DNA of 64,000 nucleotides from a virus. The stretch is taken from positions 1 to 64,000 of IMG/VR virus record IMGVR_UViG_3300038424_000251; one strand, 5' to 3'. The notes under the pieces are model-generated. The model saw only the letters and a program-made list of their open reading frames with translations, made no database searches and was not told where the DNA came from. The first letter of the stretch is position 1. Every line of letters begins with the position of its first letter. The translations under genes were made by a program, and so were the position numbers. Shown here one piece after another: positions 3,982 through 58,817 of this stretch.

Positions 3982-4441
3982 TTATTTTAGGCTTCTGTGC
4001 ATTACAACAACCATACTCATTCACTTTTTCTTCAAGTTGAAATAGGTCTGGATTGGATTTATTCAGAGATTGAAATAACATACAAATTGATGTTTTTTGG
4101 TCAAAAGAACGACAATTTTCACATCTAACTTGACGATTTACCAACCCTGCTTCTTTTGGTGTATATGAGGCAACTTCCTTTCCTTTTAAATTTGGTGACG
4201 GTTTACCATAGACATAGAAATTACAACTCATTTCACAAGTTACTTTAATTTTTCCAAGAATGGAACATGTCAATCCATCTTCACCTGTCCACATTCTACA
4301 TGTAGCGCATTGAGCAAACTTTTCCTTTGGACCTTTTGGTTCTAAATATATAAAAACTTCTCTTGTAAGTTTGTTTTTTTGTTGTTTTACTTCGGAAAAT
4401 ACTTCCAATATCAACTTTTTTATATCATTTTTATTCATCAT
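3974..4441 (-). CDS. Tagged Cys-rich, probably metal-binding protein
   Basis: A 155-residue product. The N-terminus MMNKNDIKKLILEVFSEV is a longer form of the amphipathic tag with LxE. The body has two Cys clusters: CATCRMW with following C and CEMSC around residues 43-72, and CENCRSF with SICML and a C-terminal GCC at about 107-146. This suggests two zinc- or iron-sulfur-binding lobes, but I cannot name a family. It overlaps the genes on both sides by a few bases, so translation is probably coupled. Confidence 0.6.
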   Translation of the reverse strand: MMNKNDIKKLILEVFSEVKQQKNKLTREVFIYLEPKGPKEKFAQCATCRMWTGEDGLTCSILGKIKVTCEMSCNFYVYGKPSPNLKGKEVASYTPKEAGLVNRQVRCENCRSFDQKTSICMLFQSLNKSNPDLFQLEEKVNEYGCCNAQKPKIND

Positions 4442-5310
4442 AATTGTACAAAGAAATAGTGAACATCTTCATCTAAATCATAGGCCCAAACTATAAAGTG
4501 TCTAGTATAAGGAGATATATTTCTAGCAAATTCAAATTGATGCCTATCTATTTTTTTTCTTAAAAAATCTGGAACATCGCATCTTGATAAAAATAAATGT
4601 TTATTAACTATTTGTTTTTGACTATTAGGAATATCTTTTGGATCACCAACAAGATGTTCCATTTCTGTGGCATCCGATGCTATATAGTTTCTAAATGATG
4701 GGTCATTAAGACCTGTTTTACAATTTCCTACATAACCATACCTTTTCCCACCTTCTGTTAATACAGTTTCATTATTTTCTAATCTAAAATAAGATTTACC
4801 GCCTTGTATTGGAGAGTAACAAATTTCTCTGATTGAAACTTTTAATTTCAATCCTTCTTTTATATGAGAAAATTTTCCTTTTTGGACATAAGCTAATGTT
4901 AAATGTGGGTTATATTCCGGGTAATCATTTTCATTCAGATAAATTCCTGAAAGTTCGTTTAATTTTTTTAAAACTGGACTGTTTACTTTAAACATTGCTA
5001 CATCATATTGGGGCGATGAAACAAATTTATCTAATCCTGTAAGTTCAACAACAAAAGGTTTTTGTCCTTTAAGAAGTTGACGAACTTCCAATTCATTTAA
5101 ATCCTTCAAAAATCCATAACGAATAGTGACATGACTTTCCGTTTCTCTGCCATATTCCCCGTTTTCTACATATAAATCATTGTTATTGATTAGTTGTTTA
5201 CTAAATTTTAAAATAGAATCAGATGATTCTTTTGGAATCATAGCCATCAAACAACCTTTTTTAGCCGTTGCGTCTCTATTTTCATTTACCATTTCTTTTA
5301 GATTTATCAT
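4438..5310 (-). CDS. Tagged 2H phosphoesterase-like protein
   Basis: A 290-residue product. Residues 1-10 (MINLKEMVNE) form the tag. Two HxT motifs, HVT at 60-62 and HLT at 136-138, lie in matching strand contexts (SHVTIRYGF and PHLTLAYV), the signature of the 2H phosphoesterase fold (2'-5' RNA ligase, cyclic phosphodiesterase). These enzymes act on 2'-5' or 2',3'-cyclic phosphates, and phage 2H enzymes such as T4 Acb1 destroy CBASS cyclic nucleotides. The C-terminal 110 residues (RYGYVGNCKTG to HYFFVQL) form a separate unassigned domain. Enzyme class is well supported; the natural substrate and an anti-defence role are inference. Confidence 0.7.
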   Translation of the reverse strand: MINLKEMVNENRDATAKKGCLMAMIPKESSDSILKFSKQLINNNDLYVENGEYGRETESHVTIRYGFLKDLNELEVRQLLKGQKPFVVELTGLDKFVSSPQYDVAMFKVNSPVLKKLNELSGIYLNENDYPEYNPHLTLAYVQKGKFSHIKEGLKLKVSIREICYSPIQGGKSYFRLENNETVLTEGGKRYGYVGNCKTGLNDPSFRNYIASDATEMEHLVGDPKDIPNSQKQIVNKHLFLSRCDVPDFLRKKIDRHQFEFARNISPYTRHFIVWAYDLDEDVHYFFVQL

Positions 5311-7668: not shown

Positions 7669-7994
7669 GGTTGTCGTAATGTTTTAATAAATGCTGCACC
7701 TTCTGGTGTAGTAATTCCCCATACAATTTTCCATCGAGGGTGTTCTCTATGTAAATCCCTAATCATTGCGGTTGCTATACCTTTTCTTCTTTCTGATTCA
7801 ACCGTTTCCATTCCGTCAATGTAAATTACATTTTCATATGTGGAATAATCAATTTTTCCAACTTTAATTCCCCTTTTGTCGTATGCAATAAGAGTGCAAT
7901 AATTCTGACCTTTATAATTATCTCTACAATCGTGTGTAAATTCTAAAGGCTCTCCTTTTACATATTCTGGTATAAGGTGTTTTAATTTTATCAT
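7665..7994 (-). CDS. Tagged small GNAT-like acetyltransferase
   Basis: A 109-residue product, short for the family. Residues 1-10 (MIKLKHLIPE) form the tag. VIYIDGMETVESERRKGIATAMIRDL at about 57-81 contains the acetyl-CoA loop RRKGIA, and WKIVWGITTPEGAAFIKTL matches the distal strand-helix. The N-terminal GNAT strands are reduced, so it may be a minimal or partly degenerate enzyme. It overlaps both neighbours by 4 bases. Confidence 0.6.
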   Translation of the reverse strand: MIKLKHLIPEYVKGEPLEFTHDCRDNYKGQNYCTLIAYDKRGIKVGKIDYSTYENVIYIDGMETVESERRKGIATAMIRDLHREHPRWKIVWGITTPEGAAFIKTLRQP

Positions 7995-9442
7995 ATTCCA
8001 GCCACTTTCTTAGCAATTGCTAATGCTTCATCTTTGGTCAATCCGGGATTACTATACCATGCATCAGCTACAGCATTTATAATTTCTTTGAATAATGGAC
8101 CCGGTTTCAAACCAAGGTCTTGTAAATCATATCCTGTTATAGGCATTTTTGGTTTAAGAGGGACGGTTTTTAATTTTTCCAATCTTTGTCTGATATTAGT
8201 AATTTGATTAGGCATTGACGATGCTTCAGAATGAGAAATATTATCTGCATGAATTAAATTTAATATATTTTCTAACTGTTCTCCTATTTCATTACGAAAT
8301 TTCAGTAGAGTTTTATCTTTGAATTTAACTCCAGCATCACCAGCTTGTTTTAATCTCATATGATTACGAACACCCAATTTAACTGCATCAATCAATTCTC
8401 TTGGATATTTTAATCTGTTCATTACATCTTCAACAATTTTTTCACCAGCTTCCTCATGTCCATAAAAATGAACACCTTTAGTCTCGGGGTCAACTGTTTT
8501 TGTGACAGTTTTTCCTATATCATGAAATAATGCCATTAACCGTTGAACTAGTATTGGTTCGGTTTTGCTTAATACATCAAGAGTATGTTGGAATACATCA
8601 TGTTTATGATGAATATTTTGAGCCATCTTTATTGCTGGTACTAATTCAGGAATTACAAATGGTAATAGTTCTGTAATTTTTAATAATTTAATTCCTTTGG
8701 ATGGAGAGCCAGTGATAAGAATTTTATTCAATTCGTCACGAATTCTTTCTTGGGAAATATTTTTAAGTTGAGAAGCATTTTTCTTTAAGCCTCTTATCAT
8801 AAATAAAGGAAGTGTCCAATCATATTTAACCGCAAAACGAACTGCTCTTAGCATACGGAGTGGGTCATCAGTAAAGATTTTATCGGGATTTAAAGGTGTT
8901 CTTATGATACCAGCTTTAATATCATCTTTGCCTTTACCTGTTAAATCAAGAATTTCTCCTGTGGATAAATCTTTTAATAAACTATTTACAGTAAAATCTC
9001 TTCTTTCAACATCATCTTTGAGTTCGCCGCCGGTAACTATTGGTTTTCTTGAACCCGGAATATATTTTTCTTTTCTTGGCATTACAGCTTCGATATCTAT
9101 ATCACTCAAATCTATACCATCATGAACAACACCACGAAGATTAAATTTAGCTGTTCCAAATCTTGGAAAAATTACAGGGTTTGAACTTGGGTCTTCTTCA
9201 GTTTCTCCACCTTTATAAGCTCCAACTTTTTTAGTAATCCATTTAGCAAATTCAATTCCACCATTTGGAGAATTAACAAGTAAATCCAAATCTTTCGGGT
9301 CTTTACCCATAAATTCATCGCGGACATATCCACCTGCTATGAATACTTTACCTTCCCATTCTGTTTCTTGGATGGTCTTTTTAATAAAGTCTTCTACAGC
9401 TTTTTCTTTTACACCTTCTAAAATAAGTTGTTTTATGCTCAT
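7991..9442 (-). CDS. Tagged CCA-adding tRNA nucleotidyltransferase with HD domain
   Basis: I chose the ATG at 9442, which gives MSIKQLILEG, a tag variant; the upstream in-frame ATG at 9478 would add 12 AT-rich-coded residues. The poly(A)-polymerase/CCA-enzyme head is clear: FIAGGYVRDEF with GGYVRD at 37-42 and DLD at 51-53, then RRDFTVNSLL and DPLRMLRAVRFA. An HD phosphohydrolase domain follows (HDVFQHTLDVL, ALFHDIGK, GHEEAG), as in bacterial enzymes that repair or add the tRNA 3' CCA. Length (483 residues) is normal. The packaging tag on a tRNA-repair enzyme is unusual and suggests delivery with the genome. Confidence 0.82.
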   Translation of the reverse strand: MSIKQLILEGVKEKAVEDFIKKTIQETEWEGKVFIAGGYVRDEFMGKDPKDLDLLVNSPNGGIEFAKWITKKVGAYKGGETEEDPSSNPVIFPRFGTAKFNLRGVVHDGIDLSDIDIEAVMPRKEKYIPGSRKPIVTGGELKDDVERRDFTVNSLLKDLSTGEILDLTGKGKDDIKAGIIRTPLNPDKIFTDDPLRMLRAVRFAVKYDWTLPLFMIRGLKKNASQLKNISQERIRDELNKILITGSPSKGIKLLKITELLPFVIPELVPAIKMAQNIHHKHDVFQHTLDVLSKTEPILVQRLMALFHDIGKTVTKTVDPETKGVHFYGHEEAGEKIVEDVMNRLKYPRELIDAVKLGVRNHMRLKQAGDAGVKFKDKTLLKFRNEIGEQLENILNLIHADNISHSEASSMPNQITNIRQRLEKLKTVPLKPKMPITGYDLQDLGLKPGPLFKEIINAVADAWYSNPGLTKDEALAIAKKVAGI

Positions 9443-9481
9443 TAAAATATAATTTTTTATTATACCATTATTTTTCATATT

Positions 9482-23639: not shown

Positions 23640-23972
23640 ATGATTAAGTTAAAAGACATGATACCTAAAAAGTATTTTTATCATATTACACCAAGGAAAA
23701 ATATTCCAAATATGAAAATACATGGTATAGTTCCCAAACCAGATAATCCTGCTCCTTTTTGTGATAAAGTAGTTTGTTTATTTGATAATAGGACATCAAT
23801 AGAAACTGCATTTACGAGTTGGTTGTTAGGTAAATTTAATAAAAATGAGCCAATGGTTCTTTTAACTATAGACCCTACGGGGTTAGACATACATTCATCT
23901 GAAATAGCATATGAATTTAGAGTTTTTAAACCCATACCTTGGAAAAATGTTGTAAAAGTTGAAAATATATGA
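23640..23972 (+). CDS. Tagged ADP-ribosyltransferase-like small protein
   Basis: A 110-residue product. The tag is MIKLKDMIPKK, here lacking the usual Glu. FYHITPRKNIPNMKIHGIVPK at 13-33 is the opening of several ADP-ribosyltransferase-fold families (DarT/DUF4433, Tpt1-like): YHIT strand followed by a helix ending in GI.P. VVCLFDNRTSIETAF and AYEFRVFKPIPWKNVVKV match later strands. It is short for the fold, so NAD binding is only a suggestion. T4 also packages an ADP-ribosyltransferase (Alt) with a cleaved tag, an instructive parallel. Confidence 0.5.
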   Translation: MIKLKDMIPKKYFYHITPRKNIPNMKIHGIVPKPDNPAPFCDKVVCLFDNRTSIETAFTSWLLGKFNKNEPMVLLTIDPTGLDIHSSEIAYEFRVFKPIPWKNVVKVENI

Positions 23973-24880
23973 TTAAACTAAAAAACATTTTAACTGAAGT
24001 AGCTGCAGATAGGTCATGGAATTCTCAATTATGGAACTCTGATTTATGGCAATCAAATTTATGGAACTCTGATATATGGAAATCTCATATATGGAACACA
24101 GATTTGTGGAAATCTGATTTATGGAAGTCTGATATATGGAATCCTAGTTCAACTACTACTGCTGCTACATCAAAAGAACTGACTGAAATTGAACAACATA
24201 AACCTAATGAAGTAGAAGCTTTGCCGGGTATTTTTGTGGACCCTTCAATTATAAAACATATTCAAATATTAAATAAACTTGGATTTCACACAGTTTTTTC
24301 TTGTTCTGGAATTTCATATGACCATCCCAATTTGAAGGCTGGTTCTCGTAGTGGTTATGTAATGTTTAGACATGGTTTAACTCCTAATCAAATAACGAGA
24401 ATATACAAAGCTACACTTGGTATAAAGGGGGTAAATTATGATCCGATTCATCTTAGGTCAGTTCCTTATGTTAGTTTTAGGGGTAGTGATTCTGAAAGAT
24501 TGAATGGTTGGAACCAATTTGTGAAGAATTTAATGAAGCGTAGAGTATATTATAAAAAATTAGGTAAAATCAAGGAATCAGAAGAAAAACATTCACGTAA
24601 AGGGAAATGTTATGAGCTTACCGGTAGATATGTTTCTACTCACCCCGATTCCATTCTTGTTCATGGTAAATTAGTAAATCCGTTTGTGAAAGGATTACCA
24701 GAAATAGAGCATGCATGGGTGGAAATTGGTGATAAAATTTTTGACCCCATAATGGATATAACTTGGCCAAAACAAGCATATGAGTCTTTATTTCATGCTA
24801 AACCATATAAAAAATATACTCAGGAGGAAGTTCTTAAAATTACTCTTAGAACAGAGCATTGGGGGCCTTGGGATGTATGA
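23969..24880 (+). CDS. Tagged protein with WNSDL repeats and papain-like C-terminal domain
   Basis: A 303-residue product. The tag is MIKLKNILTEVA. Residues 17-61 are nine five-residue repeats of type WNSDL/WKSDI. Residues about 85-190 form a globular domain (FVDPSIIKHIQILNKLGFHTVFSCSG). The C-terminal domain has C214 (KGKCYELTGRY), H248 (IEHAWVEIGDKIFDP) and D259, the order and spacing seen in transglutaminase/papain-like cysteine enzymes. The start overlaps the preceding stop and the end overlaps the next start. Enzyme class is tentative; the repeat is certain. Confidence 0.6.
   Translation: MIKLKNILTEVAADRSWNSQLWNSDLWQSNLWNSDIWKSHIWNTDLWKSDLWKSDIWNPSSTTTAATSKELTEIEQHKPNEVEALPGIFVDPSIIKHIQILNKLGFHTVFSCSGISYDHPNLKAGSRSGYVMFRHGLTPNQITRIYKATLGIKGVNYDPIHLRSVPYVSFRGSDSERLNGWNQFVKNLMKRRVYYKKLGKIKESEEKHSRKGKCYELTGRYVSTHPDSILVHGKLVNPFVKGLPEIEHAWVEIGDKIFDPIMDITWPKQAYESLFHAKPYKKYTQEEVLKITLRTEHWGPWDV
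24017..24151 (+). repeat. Nine tandem 15-base repeats coding W(N/K)SD(L/I)
   Basis: In-frame 15-base units (consensus TGGAANTCTGATNTA) coding for WNSQL, WNSDL, WQSNL, WNSDI, WKSHI, WNTDL, WKSDL, WKSDI and WNPSS. Confidence 0.9.
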
Positions 24881-26857: not shown

Positions 26858-27976
26858 ATGAAAATATCCAAAATTAAAGAAATAATTGATGAAGTTATAT
26901 CTGAAGAAATGGGGGAGGGATTTGGTTATGTCTATGCGAAAGACAGAGCTAAAGACCCAAAATCCATTCCCGGAGAACACTGGCGAATTAAATTTCAAAG
27001 CGCTCACGATTTAAAGAAACATGGTAATACGGAAAAATCAAAAGTGTCAGAAATTATCTATGAAATTCCTCGAAAGATTGGAATAAATGCAATGGGTGAC
27101 GAAATAGGTAGAACTTCCACTGACGAAGGAGAACTCAGGAATATGATTGGTAATATGAAACCCGGCCAATCTATTCTTTTTCATGGTAAAGAAGGTATAA
27201 AAGGACCTTTAATTTATATTGTTAAACGTGAGGGTATTGGATATGAAGTTGAGAATCATAGAAAACAAAAGCAAGAAATCACCAATGCTGACCAACTCGA
27301 TTTAATTATCAGTGGTATTGCAAAACAAGCAAACATTTTATTTAGATTTTGGAAACAAAATAAACCATCCACATATTCAGCTCCGAAATTACCAGTTGTA
27401 TCTAAAGAACAAATTAGGGAAATAATTAAAGAATTGATTGATGAAATGTGGATTGCATGGGAAGAAGATAAAAATGACAACAAAGATATAACAGAAAGTA
27501 AATATATGAATAATAAAAAAGAATTCTTAAGAGATATAATTCGTGAAGCTATTCAAGAAGTAGAATTTGAAGATGCTCCTGATGAAAAATATCAAGAAGA
27601 ACAAGAAATACTGTCTATGAAGAGAATACAATCATATGCTCATTGGATAAAAGAAAATCTTAAAGATGCTGCTAGTGAAATTGGTGGAGTAATTCAGAAA
27701 ATAGTAACCGAAATTGATGGTCTTGTTTCGGCTCATGAAAAAGGGAAGGAAATTTCACCAGTCAATGTTCACGAAGTAGCTCCTCCGGGGTGGGAAGGAA
27801 CAGTAAAAGCTATGAAGAAACATTCTGTTGGTGGGGCTAAAAGGTGGGCTCCAAAAAAGAAAAAAGAAGAAACCGTGGATGTGGAAGAAGCCAAAAAGAA
27901 GAAAAAGATTACTAATCCATATAAATTAGCATGGTGGATGAAAGGTAAAGGTTATAAATCACATAAACAAGATTAA
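26858..27976 (+). CDS. Putative packaged polyprotein with three tag copies and basic tail
   Basis: A 372-residue product. Tag-like helices occur at residues 1-17 (MKISKIKEIIDEVISEE), about 183-197 (KEQIREIIKELIDEM) and about 217-236 (MNNKKEFLRDIIREAIQEV). Between the first two lies a globular domain (HWRIKFQSAHDLKKHG to IYIVKREGIGYEVENH). After the third comes a helical stretch and a Lys-rich tail (KRWAPKKKKEE, EAKKKKKITNPYKLAWWMKG) fit for DNA binding. The layout suggests cleavage in the head into separate internal proteins. The Met at 217 could also be an internal start. Confidence 0.6.
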   Translation: MKISKIKEIIDEVISEEMGEGFGYVYAKDRAKDPKSIPGEHWRIKFQSAHDLKKHGNTEKSKVSEIIYEIPRKIGINAMGDEIGRTSTDEGELRNMIGNMKPGQSILFHGKEGIKGPLIYIVKREGIGYEVENHRKQKQEITNADQLDLIISGIAKQANILFRFWKQNKPSTYSAPKLPVVSKEQIREIIKELIDEMWIAWEEDKNDNKDITESKYMNNKKEFLRDIIREAIQEVEFEDAPDEKYQEEQEILSMKRIQSYAHWIKENLKDAASEIGGVIQKIVTEIDGLVSAHEKGKEISPVNVHEVAPPGWEGTVKAMKKHSVGGAKRWAPKKKKEETVDVEEAKKKKKITNPYKLAWWMKGKGYKSHKQD

Positions 27977-30191: not shown

Positions 30192-30952
30192 TGATGAAAA
30201 AATCAATTCTAAAACGTCTTATTAAAGAAATAATAACTACATCTAGGTGGGATACTCCTAAAGGAACTCCTGATACAGTTATCAATGTAATGCATATTAT
30301 AATTGCATCATTGCAAAAAAGAAATATAGAAAACCCTACTGATTATGTTAAAATTGGAAAACTTAAAATGTCTAAACCTTCAGATTTAGGATGGAGTATA
30401 TTTTCGTCAAAAGGAAATGAACGTAATTATATTTATTATGTTAATACAAATAATACGTGGTATATAAGTACTGTATCAAAAAATAAAATAGGTTTTAAAA
30501 TAAGAAATGCTAAAAATTTGGGAGATGTTTTTTTACATTCAATAATGGAAGATTGGGTAAATTTTACAGAAAGGGGAATTGATAATTTAATTAGTGAAGA
30601 TTTCACATTAGGATATAGTCATGGTATTGTTATTGATGACCCGACATTTTTAGTTCGTGACCCATTAAATGACCCTGAATTGACAGGTAAAATGAATGAA
30701 CAATATAGATTTCATGATTTTGATTGGTTGTCAGATATGAGTGGTTTTGGTAAACCTACAGATGTTTATTATGGTTCTATACTGTTGGGTGTAATTGAAT
30801 CAAAGCCTGATGGATATATAATAAGAATAGTAATGGGACCAAAACGAGCTGAACTTATCAGGTCCTCACCAAAAAATAAATTTAAAACTAAGGAAGTAGC
30901 AGCCAAAGTTCTTCATGCAACATGGAAACAATTTAGAAATATAAATATATGA
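30191..30952 (+). CDS. Tagged protein of unknown function
   Basis: A 253-residue product beginning MMKKSILKRLIKEIITTSRW, a clear tag. The body mixes strands and helices (WSIFSSKGNERNYIYYVNTNNTWYIST, VFLHSIMEDWVNFTERGIDNLIS) and ends with a basic helix (KEVAAKVLHATWKQFRNI). Its start overlaps the previous stop codon and its end overlaps the next start, so three genes are coupled. No family assigned. Confidence 0.58.
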   Translation: MMKKSILKRLIKEIITTSRWDTPKGTPDTVINVMHIIIASLQKRNIENPTDYVKIGKLKMSKPSDLGWSIFSSKGNERNYIYYVNTNNTWYISTVSKNKIGFKIRNAKNLGDVFLHSIMEDWVNFTERGIDNLISEDFTLGYSHGIVIDDPTFLVRDPLNDPELTGKMNEQYRFHDFDWLSDMSGFGKPTDVYYGSILLGVIESKPDGYIIRIVMGPKRAELIRSSPKNKFKTKEVAAKVLHATWKQFRNINI

Positions 30953-32235
30953 AAAAAATAGGTATTTATCCGGGAAATTTTCAACCAGCTACTAGAGCTC
31001 ACTTGGAAGTTTATAAAAGATTAAAATCGTTGGTAGGGCCTGATAGTTTTATAGCTACTACAGATAGAGAGCCTACGCCTGATGCGCCATTGAATTTTGG
31101 AGATAAACAGCAGATTTGGGTAAGACATGGAGTTTCGGCAGGTCAAGTAGTTAAGATTTCTATGTTACCATCTGATAATATAGAAAGAGCTATGGAGTGG
31201 AGGCCAGTAGAAATTTTCAATAATTTTTCAGCAGAACATATAGCAGCTATCTGTGTTTTTAATGAGAAAGAAGTTGCATTGTTTTCCAAGAGGAAGGGAA
31301 AAATAGGTCCAAGTGTTGATGGTATGGTTGCTGGAACAACAGGAAAAATTCAAAGGGTGGTGGAAGCTTTATTAAAAAAGAAAAAAAAGGCAAAAAAGGA
31401 ACGTTCTCCGATGATTTATAAACCGACAGGTTTTAATGTAATAAGTAAAAGTACTGTTGATATTAAAAAACAAACAGAACCACGAGAAACAGAAAGTAGA
31501 GAAACATGGTTAAAACCAGATGGTTCTCTTCAATATTTTCAACCATATAAAGGAAATGAAAATATTTTGAAACCATTTAGAGAACACGCCTATATTATAG
31601 TGTTAGATGATTCAAGAATTCAAGGAAATCCTGTATCTACGGCTAATATTCGTAGTGTTTTGGGTTCTACGAAATATACTGATGACCAGAAGAAAAAATT
31701 CTTTAGATGGATATTTGGCTGGTTTGATATAGGGTTATATCAATTAATAACATTAAAATTTAAAATGGCACATCAAGTTATGTCACCAGAAGAGGAACCA
31801 TCACAACCAGCTATGACGGATGTAGGCGCAGAAACTCAAATATATCCATCAAAATCTTTTTCTTCTTCTGAAATTTATAATTCAAGAAGAAAACTAAAAG
31901 AGATGGTTTATGAAATTCTTGAAGAAATAATGGATGAAGATTATTCTACTACTATCAATGAGCCTGATTCTTCTACTACTGATAAGGGAACGTCTGGTAC
32001 TTCGAATGGGGAAAAAAGTTCATCACAACAAAGAGCAGATGCAACTAAACAGAAGCAGGATTTGGTTGCACAAAAACGACAGGCTGAAAGAAGTTTAAAG
32101 GGCATGACAGCAGATTTGGCATGGAAAAAGGCAGATGTTGATAGAAAAAGAAAAGACGAGCTTCCGGGTAAAAGAAAAGAAATAGATGATTTGAATAGAC
32201 AAATTGCTGCATCTTCGGGTGCTATTAATGTATAA
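30949..32235 (+). CDS. Cytidylyltransferase-fold protein with internal tag and coiled coil
   Basis: A 428-residue product. MKKIGIYPGNFQPATRAHLEVYKRL is the opening of HxGH-type nucleotidylyltransferases (GxFxPxxxxH with RAHL), and PVSTANIRSVLGS at about 228-240 matches their ISxTxIR phosphate-binding motif. These transfer nucleotides to NMN, pantetheine phosphate or similar. From about 312, RRKLKEMVYEILEEIMDE is an internal tag copy, followed by a polar linker and an Arg/Lys/Glu coiled coil (about 355-420). The fusion suggests either an attached packaged tail piece or a polyprotein. Confidence 0.6.
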   Translation: MKKIGIYPGNFQPATRAHLEVYKRLKSLVGPDSFIATTDREPTPDAPLNFGDKQQIWVRHGVSAGQVVKISMLPSDNIERAMEWRPVEIFNNFSAEHIAAICVFNEKEVALFSKRKGKIGPSVDGMVAGTTGKIQRVVEALLKKKKKAKKERSPMIYKPTGFNVISKSTVDIKKQTEPRETESRETWLKPDGSLQYFQPYKGNENILKPFREHAYIIVLDDSRIQGNPVSTANIRSVLGSTKYTDDQKKKFFRWIFGWFDIGLYQLITLKFKMAHQVMSPEEEPSQPAMTDVGAETQIYPSKSFSSSEIYNSRRKLKEMVYEILEEIMDEDYSTTINEPDSSTTDKGTSGTSNGEKSSSQQRADATKQKQDLVAQKRQAERSLKGMTADLAWKKADVDRKRKDELPGKRKEIDDLNRQIAASSGAINV

Positions 32236-49848: not shown

Positions 49849-51195
49849 TTAGAATCCATGAAGAGCTTCTTTTTCACGTTTCTGTTCAATTTTTCTTTCA
49901 ACTTCTATTTCAATTTCTTTCGTTAATTTTGCTAAATCAGCTAATGCCTTTAGTCTATATGTTAAACTACCACCATGTCTTTCTATATTACCCAATCTAC
50001 GTCTTTGACGTTCTCTAGAAGCAATGGCATGTTTTAAGCAGTATTCTCTGATGGTAGCAGGTTGTCCACAATCTATACAACGCTTTGCTTTTTTCATTCT
50101 TAATCGCCATTTATGTTGATTTGAAATGGGTAAATCAGAAAATTCGTCTTTAATTGGAGGACGACCTATTTCATTAATTATTTCAATTACATAATCATTA
50201 AAAGAAGGTTGTTGCTGTTGTTTTTTACGCTCTTTTTGGATTGCATCGTCAACTGCTTTATCAAATGCTAATTGCAATTTATATGTTTTGCTACCAAATC
50301 TTCTTGTTTTATAACCTAATGCACGTCTTTGAGCTTCTCTATAAATAATAGCATGTTTTAAGCAATATCTTGCTACAACAGCAGGTTCTCCACATATTAT
50401 ACATTTATTTTCTTTTTCTCTTCTTAGTTGATATTTTCTTTGTCTTGAGATAGGTAAATCAGAAAATTCATCATGGTATGGTTTTCCAGTTACTTCATCA
50501 ATTACTTCTTTAATAAGTTGTTTGAAATCATTTTTTGTGATAAATGTTTGTTCTTCTAACTCATAACCAATTTTTGCGCCTCTCATCATATCTCGCCTAT
50601 ATTTTTCTCTAGCTCTCATTGCGGGTTTAAGAATATTTTTGAATCTATCGGTTTCTCTTCGCAGTTCTTCTTTGTCTTTTTTAAGTTTTGCACAATCTCT
50701 GCAAACCTGCATTTGATTTCCTTTGTCGTCTTTTTCTGCTTTTTTCTTAAAACACTTAATACAAATACCTTGTTTCAATGCTTGAAGTCGTCTAGCTTTA
50801 AGTTCATCTTCACATTTTTGACAAAGTTTTTTACCCGGCAGGGGTGGATTTGGACATCTCGCACAAGAACCACGTTTCTTTATTAATTTTTCTCTAGCTG
50901 CTCTAAATTGTTTAAGACAATCTTCACAATATATTCCTCTTTTTCCATTTGGTTTTATAATTGCTGGATTTTTACCACATTGAATACACAATCCTTTATT
51001 TCTTCTGGCTTGTTTAAGTTTCATTGAGGCAAATTTTTGTCTTTGTTTTGTAGTCATGCCTTTCAAGGCAAATTGTTCTTCCGGTGTTAATTCATACTCG
51101 GTGCTTGTACGAAAATCAGGACCATATTGCCTGTTATAAATTCTAACCTCTTTTATAACTTCCCAAATTAATTTATGGAATTCCATTGGTGTCAT
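49849..51195 (-). CDS. Tagged multi-zinc-finger putative polyprotein
   Basis: A 448-residue, strongly basic product. Tag-like helices occur at 1-18 (MTPMEFHKLIWEVIKEV), about 220-235 (TKNDFKQLIKEVIDEV) and 332-343 (FNDYVIEIINEI). The first module has several CxxC knuckles (CIQC...CEDC, CARC...CQKC, CIKC...CRDC). Modules two and three are clear duplicates: both read DEFSDLPIS, then a CxxC, then YCLKHA and a basic RxRRxLG helix. These look like DNA-binding units, each led by a cleavage tag. TATTTATA precedes the start. Confidence 0.65.
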   Translation of the reverse strand: MTPMEFHKLIWEVIKEVRIYNRQYGPDFRTSTEYELTPEEQFALKGMTTKQRQKFASMKLKQARRNKGLCIQCGKNPAIIKPNGKRGIYCEDCLKQFRAAREKLIKKRGSCARCPNPPLPGKKLCQKCEDELKARRLQALKQGICIKCFKKKAEKDDKGNQMQVCRDCAKLKKDKEELRRETDRFKNILKPAMRAREKYRRDMMRGAKIGYELEEQTFITKNDFKQLIKEVIDEVTGKPYHDEFSDLPISRQRKYQLRREKENKCIICGEPAVVARYCLKHAIIYREAQRRALGYKTRRFGSKTYKLQLAFDKAVDDAIQKERKKQQQQPSFNDYVIEIINEIGRPPIKDEFSDLPISNQHKWRLRMKKAKRCIDCGQPATIREYCLKHAIASRERQRRRLGNIERHGGSLTYRLKALADLAKLTKEIEIEVERKIEQKREKEALHGF

Positions 51196-56422: not shown

Positions 56423-57199
56423 ATGCTGGAAGAAAAATATTTTGATGCTAAAAGAGTTATCATCAAGAAAATAGATAAGGCTGTAGCTGAAGAAATAATT
56501 ATAAAATATCATTATTCACATAAATGGTCTTTATGTCAGATTGCGTATGGAATTTTTTATATTACCGACAAGCAATGTCAATTTTTTAATGCTGTAGAGG
56601 AAACTCTTATTGGTTGTATTGTATATGGTCAGCCCGTTGGTCGTTCTGCTGCCGAATCTATTTCAAAGTTAGTTGGTGTTTACGAAGTATTTGAACTTAC
56701 TAGATTATTCATTCATGATGGATACGGTAAAAATATAGAAAGTTATTCAATATCAAAATCTCTAGAACTTGTTAAAAGAGATTTCCCACATATTAAAGCA
56801 ATAATTTCTTATGCAGATGGTGAGCAGGGACATAAAGGAACTATTTATCAGGCTTGTAATTTTCATTATCAAGGTAATTCTTCTTTAGCTTTGATGCCCA
56901 ATTACTCTGTTTCTTTAGTTGGACCTCCTTATAAATGGATTCACTCAAGAACTATTTCATCAACATATGGTTCGCATAACGTTGAATATTTGAAAAAAAA
57001 GATAGGTCATACATTCTGGAGAAAAAAAGAATCTTCAAAACACAGATATGTTTACTTACTTGGAAATAAAAAAGAAAAAAGAAAAATACTGTTAAATCTT
57101 AAACATCCATTTCAATCTTACCCAAAGAGTACAAATCATACCGATGAAATTGAACAAATCATAGTAAATCCTCTTACAGAAAATCAATTCTTTGGATGA
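56423..57199 (+). CDS. Mom-like DNA-modification protein
   Basis: A 258-residue product. EETLIGCIVYGQPVGRSAA, VYEVFELTRLFIHDGYGKN, then IKAIISYADGEQGHKGTIYQACNFHYQGNS match the phage Mu Mom family, a GNAT-like fold that makes acetamido/methylcarbamoyl-type adenine in DNA and so blocks restriction. The conserved SYADxxQGHxGTIYQ segment is near residues 129-145. The perfect early promoter suggests expression at once on infection, unlike Mu, where mom is late. The modified base has not been shown here. Confidence 0.7.
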   Translation: MLEEKYFDAKRVIIKKIDKAVAEEIIIKYHYSHKWSLCQIAYGIFYITDKQCQFFNAVEETLIGCIVYGQPVGRSAAESISKLVGVYEVFELTRLFIHDGYGKNIESYSISKSLELVKRDFPHIKAIISYADGEQGHKGTIYQACNFHYQGNSSLALMPNYSVSLVGPPYKWIHSRTISSTYGSHNVEYLKKKIGHTFWRKKESSKHRYVYLLGNKKEKRKILLNLKHPFQSYPKSTNHTDEIEQIIVNPLTENQFFG

Positions 57200-57224
57200 A
57201 ATATTGATATTTATAAGAGATATG
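57195..57224 (+). promoter_or_regulatory. 30-base promoter-like element, second copy
   Basis: Matches 10057-10086 with one mismatch; TATTTATA at 57208-57215, ATG at 57222. It overlaps the end of the Mom-like gene. Confidence 0.55.
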
Positions 57225-58817
57225 ATAATGTCTTTTATTACAGATATGGGTGAGAAACTCAAATTGGTTGACCAAAAAACTGGTAATATTATTGAATTGC
57301 CTCAACATGCTTATTGGGATGATTTAGGTAAAGGTAAACCAGAAGTTAAGGAAACAGGTGACAATTTAGAACATCTTAAAAAAAAATATAATGTACCGGA
57401 CAATCGCATAATTAGAGCAAAGGAACTTACACAAAGTATGAAAGAAGCTGTATCTAGTGAAAATATCAATATTATTGTTGACAGAGAATCGGAACTTGGT
57501 TATAGAGTTGTAAATGCTGTTTATATTAGAGGCGGATTTGAAAAAGGAATTGAAAAAATAAAGAAATTATCCAGTTATAAAGGAGTAGTTCAGTTTGTAA
57601 ATCCAGAAACAGGAGAAACGGTAAAAGGGCCTAAATATGATACAGCAACACAAATTATGAAGGGAAGAAAAATTAGTGATGTATTACCCCGTGGAATAAA
57701 ACAACAACCACCAACTGAACCAACACAATATGAACCAAGAGATAGAGTTGATGAATTAGAATGGGGAAAAAAACCACAACAATATAAAAGTCAAATTATA
57801 GTTAGCAAAAAATGGTTAGGAAAATATAAAGTTACTGCTTATGATGAAAATGGTAATATAGCAGGAAATGGAACAGAACAATATGAATTTGCGTCACCTG
57901 ACCATGTTGTAGTAACAGTCAGATATTTACAGAAAAAACATCCTGAATGGTCCGTTATAGATTTAACTAAAGAAATATTTATGAATGAAATCACTAAATT
58001 TAGAAACATAATCAGAGAGTGTATCTCTGAAATAAAAAAAGAGAACGACCCAAGAACACTTCTTAAAGAGTCACTTCGTAATGTAGTTAAAGAAGTTTTA
58101 AAAGAAATAGCGACTGTTTCTAAACCAGAACCAACCGAAGAGGAAAAAACAGACACTTCCAAGGGATATTTCAAAAAATTGAATCAACGTGTGGATAAAA
58201 CTAATGATAAATTACAGGCTGAACTTGAAACGATTGTTCATGGTATTGACCCTACTTGGGAAGTCTATTGGGATGACCACAATCAGTTGATTGTTCGTGC
58301 TCATAATCTTTTATATGTTAGAATTGTGCCAAAATTTGAAAATAATTATGATATTGATGCTATGGTGAAATTGGTTGATAGAGTCCGTGCTATAGCTCAA
58401 ACATGGGACCAAGTTAAGGCATTTGTCAAAGCTAACTTTAATGATTTGAAAAATCAGACTATTCCTGATAAATTACATAAAAAATCTGTTGATAACTATG
58501 AAGATAGAGAAGTAATTAAAAAGGATGCTGGCCCGGAGAAAGCTAAAGTTAATTTTAGATATCAAGACCCAAAACATAGTAGTGTTAAAGATACTAAGAA
58601 AGATGATAAAAATTATAATGAACCTCAAACCAAGAGGGCAGAAGATATGCCTGACCAACCAATGAAGCAGGTGACAGAGCCCGGTAAAGACCCGGAATCT
58701 AAAAATAAAAACATTACAAAAACTCCTCAGGTTAAACCACCAAAACACAAACTTGACAAAAAATTGAGAGTGAAAGACAAGAAAACTTCCAAATTTACTT
58801 TTAAGAAGACAACCTAA
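57222..58817 (+). CDS. Putative late polyprotein with central tag copies
   Basis: Start at 57222 (MIMSFITDMG); the TTG at 57192 only reads through the promoter element. The 531-residue product has an N-terminal half with an ELGYRVVNAVYIRGGFEKGIEK domain and a strand-rich SQIIVSKKWLGKYKVTAYDENG module. Two tag-like helices lie at about 254-271 (MNEITKFRNIIRECISEI) and 276-291 (LLKESLRNVVKEVLKEI). A folded domain follows (LETIVHGIDPTWEVYWDDHN), then a long Lys-rich disordered tail (KHKLDKKLRVKDKKTSK). The design resembles the polyprotein at 26858-27976. Confidence 0.6.
   Translation: MIMSFITDMGEKLKLVDQKTGNIIELPQHAYWDDLGKGKPEVKETGDNLEHLKKKYNVPDNRIIRAKELTQSMKEAVSSENINIIVDRESELGYRVVNAVYIRGGFEKGIEKIKKLSSYKGVVQFVNPETGETVKGPKYDTATQIMKGRKISDVLPRGIKQQPPTEPTQYEPRDRVDELEWGKKPQQYKSQIIVSKKWLGKYKVTAYDENGNIAGNGTEQYEFASPDHVVVTVRYLQKKHPEWSVIDLTKEIFMNEITKFRNIIRECISEIKKENDPRTLLKESLRNVVKEVLKEIATVSKPEPTEEEKTDTSKGYFKKLNQRVDKTNDKLQAELETIVHGIDPTWEVYWDDHNQLIVRAHNLLYVRIVPKFENNYDIDAMVKLVDRVRAIAQTWDQVKAFVKANFNDLKNQTIPDKLHKKSVDNYEDREVIKKDAGPEKAKVNFRYQDPKHSSVKDTKKDDKNYNEPQTKRAEDMPDQPMKQVTEPGKDPESKNKNITKTPQVKPPKHKLDKKLRVKDKKTSKFTFKKTT

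Follow-up and report, generated by a model that had tools for sequence, protein, structure and literature searches.

A predicted polyprotein of head-cargo modules with repeated capsid-targeting-like tags in an uncultured T4-type giant phage

The ORF at 26858-27976 on the plus strand of a T4-type giant phage encodes a 372-residue product. This is probably a polyprotein that joins several small head-cargo (ejection) proteins and is predicted to be packaged, cut at hydrophobic-x-Glu (PhixE) sites and ejected. It lies in a window of 64 kb, the whole stretch of DNA analyzed here, which belongs to a virus record of 365,299 bases. Its frame and coordinates were verified. The same protein was found with 100% amino acid identity in four other IMG/VR contigs, so the ORF is not an assembly slip. 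Its features are as follows.

26858..27976, + strand: predicted head-cargo polyprotein, 372 aa (ORF; identical over the full length in the four other contigs)
26858..26908, + strand: tag 1, residues 1-17, N-terminal, MKISKIKEIIDEVISEE; candidate cuts after E12 and E16 (16.3 bits; both Glu invariant in 10/10 relatives)
26909..27052, + strand: module D, residues 18-65, GxGYVYxKDRxKDPKSIPGEHWRIKFQS..KHGxTEKSxVxE, ending in the PhixE site SKVSE65 (alignment; 14 viral-contig loci)
27053..27397, + strand: module F, residues 66-180, predicted alpha/beta, missing in L006 (comparison of relatives)
27398..27448, + strand: tag 2, residues 181-197, VSKEQIREIIKELIDEM; candidate cut after E196 (19.1 bits; E196 invariant in 10/10 relatives)
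27449..27505, + strand: acidic spacer, residues 198-216, with candidate site ITE213 (sequence)
27506..27562, + strand: tag 3, residues 217-235, MNNKKEFLRDIIREAIQEV; candidate cut after E234 (10.7 bits; L048 3396-3818 and L042 6095-6625)
27563..27775, + strand: YAHW module, residues 236-306, acidic, predicted helical hairpin, ending in the PhixE site NVHE306
27776..27973, + strand: basic mobile GWEG module, residues 307-372, pI 10.1, net charge +12 (at least 340 viral-contig loci)
26186..26833, + strand: upstream gene, separate here; in L005 a weakly similar counterpart precedes tag 1 within one fused protein

Three tags as module boundaries

The preliminary description of this DNA had proposed three tag-like helices in one protein, at residues 1-17, about 183-197 and about 217-236, and all three were recovered at close to these positions. 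The bit scores listed above come from a 14-column position matrix trained on the N-terminal tags of other ORFs of the same genome (those of the window and of 40 kb around the head genes), with ORF 26858-27976 held out. Compared with shuffled copies of the 372-residue protein, the best-window probabilities were 0.001, 0.0005 and 0.025 for tags 1, 2 and 3, respectively. Tag 3 by itself is only marginally above chance within the protein; it is kept in relatives, and two of these, L048 and L042, have a real gene that starts with it. The propeptide of tag 1 is short, 12-17 residues, with an (L/I)-x-E ending (MKISKIKEIIDE / VISE). Two further candidate sites, SKVSE65 and ITE213, had not been listed in the preliminary description; module D ends in TEKSxVxE or near variants across relatives.

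The earlier division into a globular part, a short spacer and a Lys-rich tail held as far as the tags are boundaries, but the sequence directly after tag 3 is not Lys-rich. Residues 235-306 (72 aa) are acidic, with a pI of 4.8 and a net charge of -8, and the 66-residue basic tail starts only behind NVHE306. The predicted pieces upstream have pI values of 9.1 for D (49 aa) and 8.8 for F with tag 2 (131 aa). AlphaFold models of the full protein and of residues 217-372 placed helices at 3-19, 183-206 and 219-234, with a low-confidence break after E234, where the helix of tag 3 terminates (pLDDT 50); with a mean pLDDT of 50, burial of the tags cannot be judged from them.

ORF 26858-27976 contains no Pfam domain and has only a chance-level match in PHROGs. 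A tblastn search against phage isolates returned nothing for the whole protein or for module D, no Rfam match reached the gathering score near the ORF, and no tRNA was found in the window. Scanning of genome contigs gave one matching gammaproteobacterial MAG contig, a single contig being too few for a host call. The starts of the window ORFs have no obvious Shine-Dalgarno motif and lie in an A/T-rich context, for example aaatatATG.

Comparison with relatives supports the reading of the tags as module boundaries, as the same modules are found there as separate tagged genes. The equivalent of residues 217-371 is a separate gene of 140 aa in L048 (3396-3818), which starts at the Met of tag 3 (Met217), overlaps the preceding gene by ATGA and aligns over its residues 1-139 with 48% identity (BLAST, E 1e-44). 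The separate gene at L042 6095-6625 is likewise begun by tag 3, with the GWEG module directly behind. At the other end of the protein, the reading frame of L005 runs from a counterpart of the upstream gene on into tag 1, giving a fused protein of 880 aa, and L042 carries a similar fusion, judged by its N-terminal PPFYT..KW motif. The upstream ORF and the N-terminus of L005 match weakly, at 27% identity and with E 9e-6 without composition correction; the two are linked because the syntenic ORF of L006 (5337-5789) shares the motif. Within the phage's own genome, a 129-aa gene at 357613-358002 aligns from its residue 1 onward with the tag-2 module of L005 (E 5e-5).

All three tags were also recovered by the hold-out matrix in L033, L006, L005 and L050, with different pieces between them. 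The piece immediately behind tag 2 has been exchanged in the close pair L009/L011, and in L006, where module F is absent, SKVDE leads almost straight to tag 2. BLAST HSP ends fell at tags 28 times, compared with 16.7 expected at random positions (P 0.0045). The excess of HSP ends at PhixE sites was modest (48 against 33, inside the maximum of random draws), and PhixE motifs inside modules occur at background frequency. One module of the relatives (L005 about 357-450, L009 27-115) has the motif LQLALDVAGI.P.IGT...ISLLRAA...IDAGISAISLVPF and no Pfam match; it presumably resembles the pre-toxin TG-type domain of polymorphic toxins.

A second, unrelated modular polyprotein at genome positions 358024-359352 (L028:12725-14053), close to the capsid gene, shows the same fused-or-standalone pattern. 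Its SWIM-like C-terminal domain is a standalone gene right after a tag in L164, follows a tag and a short segment in L163, and stands after internal tags and other modules in the phage's own genome, L160 and L162. The first module of L160 is a separate gene in L159, with its own MIKLKSLISE start.

The basic GWEG module and its junctions

The GWEG module has the consensus PxGWEGTVKAMKKH...NPxALAWWMKxKGYKSH. Searching 50,697 phage records by tblastn gave one weak match, Virus Rctr197k, which was set aside because the module in its ORF has diverged and lacks the PxGW start. Three positions ahead of the module, Glu is present in 34 of 36 distinct contexts. Among the 27 contexts whose upstream sequence is unrelated, Glu is kept in 26 and hydrophobic-x-Glu in 24. 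P3 of the junction is I, V, L, M or F at 29 of the 34 Glu sites and Ala at none.

The 56-aa gene of L077, MKSFIQYLNE followed by VSPPGFEG..., consists of a T4-like CTS and the GWEG module, and in L012, L015 and L017 a GWEG-bearing gene lies between a protease-like ORF and scaffold- and capsid-like ORFs. The only contexts without Glu are L019 and L020, with KVA and KEA before VAPPGW; they represent one lineage, the L019 record being only 32 kb, and their records have neither S77 nor Gp23, whereas nine other large GWEG-bearing records carry both. The candidate cut site ahead of the module may track the type of protease.

Predicted processing and competing explanations

The genome encodes the protease and capsid protein that such processing would call for. 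A Peptidase_S77 of the T4 gp21 family is found at 342.9 kb (342792-343421, E 1.7e-27) and a Gp23 capsid protein at 354-356 kb (E 1.3e-59), whose N-terminus reads LENQAKQLIEE, then ATATG, at the cut position of T4-type capsid proteins. The scaffold-like ORF just before Gp23 (352431-354023) contains KLITE followed directly by GNEMALRFKKLAGI. Genes with several tags adjoin the protease and capsid genes. T4 gp21 cuts after L/I-x-E, T4 internal proteins bear CTS propeptides of 10-19 residues, and T4 gp22, gp67 and gp68 are each cut into several fragments (PMC9026906; PMC5694885).

We propose that each tag would be a capsid-targeting/propeptide helix as on T4 internal proteins, with one or two hydrophobic-x-Glu sites at its end, and that the tags would recruit the chain to the prohead core. 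The gp21-type protease would then cut after the Glu of the tags (E12/E16, E196 and E234), and the same S77 enzyme would cut the other module ends at E65, E213 and E306. Such cuts would free the tags and leave D (about 49 aa), F (about 115-130 aa), the acidic YAHW module (72 aa) and the basic GWEG module (66 aa) as separate pieces, each with a putative function of its own. With its own signal and site on every module, fusion, fission and swapping at the tags would be nearly neutral, which would explain why the same parts occur as one, two or three genes in relatives.

The idea that one product is cut by a protease into several internal proteins had been put forward in the preliminary description. 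It gains support from the module boundaries, the separate tagged genes of relatives, the encoded S77 protease and the PhixE sites conserved at junctions with variable flanks, while cutting itself is a prediction from these sequences. A basic DNA-condensing peptide had been foreseen too. The basic tail exists, and its charge suggests that it binds or condenses DNA, but release at tag 3 did not hold: because an acidic helical module separates tag 3 from the tail, release of the basic peptide would need a cut at E306.

The main competing explanation, which we regard as rather unlikely, is that the chain is packaged and stays uncut, with the tags as scaffold- or core-binding helices, present in several copies to raise avidity, and the modules kept together in a single multidomain protein that is ejected. 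The predicted amphipathic helices of the tags would suit it, as would the T4 CTS, whose targeting residues are separable from its processing residues (PMC9026906). Conservation of the Glu is also not proof of cutting, because amphipathic helices ending in E could be protein-protein contact helices. However, the last Glu (retained in 27 of 28 tag copies) and the hydrophobic P3 are among the most conserved positions, PhixE is found at the tagless junctions E65 and E306 as well, and in relatives these modules function as proteins of their own. A non-proteolytic origin of the C-terminal piece is also conceivable, if the Met of tag 3 (27506) is still a start codon from which this piece is translated separately. 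Since that Met is kept in the fused L005, L006, L033 and L037 and its context, aaatatATG, is like the usual start context of the phage, whose starts do without Shine-Dalgarno motifs, internal initiation could add to cleavage or replace it at this tag. As the explanation of the gene it is improbable: tag 2 has Val or Ile instead of Met in nine of 10 relatives, L050 lacks the Met at tag 3, and E65 and E306 would be left unexplained.

The gene sits between tail sheath-like and tail tube-like genes, outside the head cluster, as would be expected if the protein were not a head protein and the tags were a general domain or host-interaction motif. We consider this quite improbable given the resemblance of the tags to the T4-type CTS, the S77 and Gp23 encoded by this genome, the location of GWEG polyproteins next to protease-like and capsid-like ORFs in relatives, and the multi-tag genes beside the phage's own protease and capsid genes. 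Genes of these phages often fuse and split, and recent fusions might have stranded former N-terminal tags inside the protein as residues with no present function; this is highly improbable, because the tags are kept in place in relatives that are only about 35-60% identical while the modules between them are replaced, and internal tags occur in several unrelated genes of the phage.

Tags across the genome and known packaging systems

A census of tags covered 104 ORFs, those of the window and of 40 kb around the head genes of the record. N-terminal tags were found in 19 of them, compared with 0.8 expected from shuffles. Seven internal tags exceeded 15 bits; the controls gave 0.2 when shuffled, 0.07 when locally shuffled and one when reversed. 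Besides the ORF under study, candidates with multiple or internal tags are 49849-51195 (minus strand), 30949-32235 and 57192-58817 in the window, and 343723-344988 and 358024-359352 in genome positions. The MIKLK starts of tagged ORFs differ in their synonymous codons, which argues for selection on the tag peptide rather than for copied DNA; duplication of DNA as the source of the tags was rejected on these grounds.

Some tagged ORFs of the window carry enzyme domains (GNAT, CCA-adding enzyme, lysozyme and 2'-5' ligase/Acb1-like), and such proteins would make sense as head-delivered cargo. The ORF at 4438-5310 (minus strand) has the tag MINLKEMVNE and a likeness to 2'-5' RNA ligase and anti-CBASS Acb1 just under the Pfam cut-offs; its product is possibly a head-delivered counter-defence enzyme. 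The tagged CCA-adding enzyme at 7991-9478 (minus strand; tRNA nucleotidyltransferase-like) is an unusual candidate for injected cargo. The tag of 23969-24880 is followed at once by a run of about nine W-N/K-S-D/H-L/I-W repeats. The 448-aa protein of 49849-51195, with N-terminal and internal tags, has two repeats DEFSDLPIS..C..C..ARYC/REYC, each behind a tag-like helix (KQLIKEVIDE and DYVIEIINE). Between portal-like and protease-like ORFs, genome positions 339607-341658 (L027) encode a 683-aa protein that is tagged at its N-terminus and contains one domain in about three copies, the second of which is preceded by the tag-like KNMVEKAILNE.

The closest likeness is to the CTS-bearing, gp21-cut T4 proteins IPI, IPII, IPIII and Alt, with which the tags share a short N-terminal helix-like form ending in hydrophobic-x-Glu. 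Further points of agreement are protease and capsid genes of T4 type, a cargo that is small and basic, and one tag common to unrelated cargo. The (L/I)-x-E propeptide, S77 with Gp23 and the tag on unrelated cargo were all found here; the restriction of the CTS to one N-terminal copy was not. T4 proteins have one N-terminal CTS each (Alt is also processed C-terminally), whereas three tags stand in this chain (P0001), and some of the modules between them are separate genes in relatives. The earlier remark that in-frame internal tags fall outside the T4 scheme agrees with this. Like T4 gp22, gp67 and gp68, the protein would be one precursor from which a gp21-type protease makes several fragments. 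Those three are scaffold parts whose fragments mostly leave the head, whereas the modules here are swappable, separately encoded and equipped with their own tags. Neither a location in the gp20-21-22-23 cluster nor a scaffold role was found; the scaffold-like ORF is elsewhere.

The head ejection proteins of phiKZ and SPN3US also come from giant phages with a diverged gp21-type protease (gp175 and gp245, respectively), which cuts them after Glu several times per precursor. The cut motif of SPN3US gp245 is A-x-E, with repeated cuts within propeptides (PMC10052503), unlike the hydrophobic-x-Glu described here. The cuts in phiKZ and SPN3US lie within N-terminal propeptides, mostly of more than 100 residues, whereas here the tag has 12-17 residues and the predicted cuts lie between mature modules. 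Phage P1 DarB shares an N-terminal targeting signal on an ejected protein, but this signal is single, has no consensus among Dar proteins and has no described internal copies.

Polyproteins are a hallmark of viruses of animals and plants. No precedent for phage polyproteins or for a repeated CTS between exchangeable modules was found in the open-access literature. On balance, we lean towards the view that in this uncultured T4-type phage lineage in-frame repeated CTS/PhixE tags build swappable polyproteins of head-ejected modules, so that one gene would give several independent effectors and the tags would be shuffling joints between genes and phages. If true, this would be a different way for a tailed phage to load and deliver many effectors, and the tag would offer a way to find the injected proteins of uncultured phages by their sequence.
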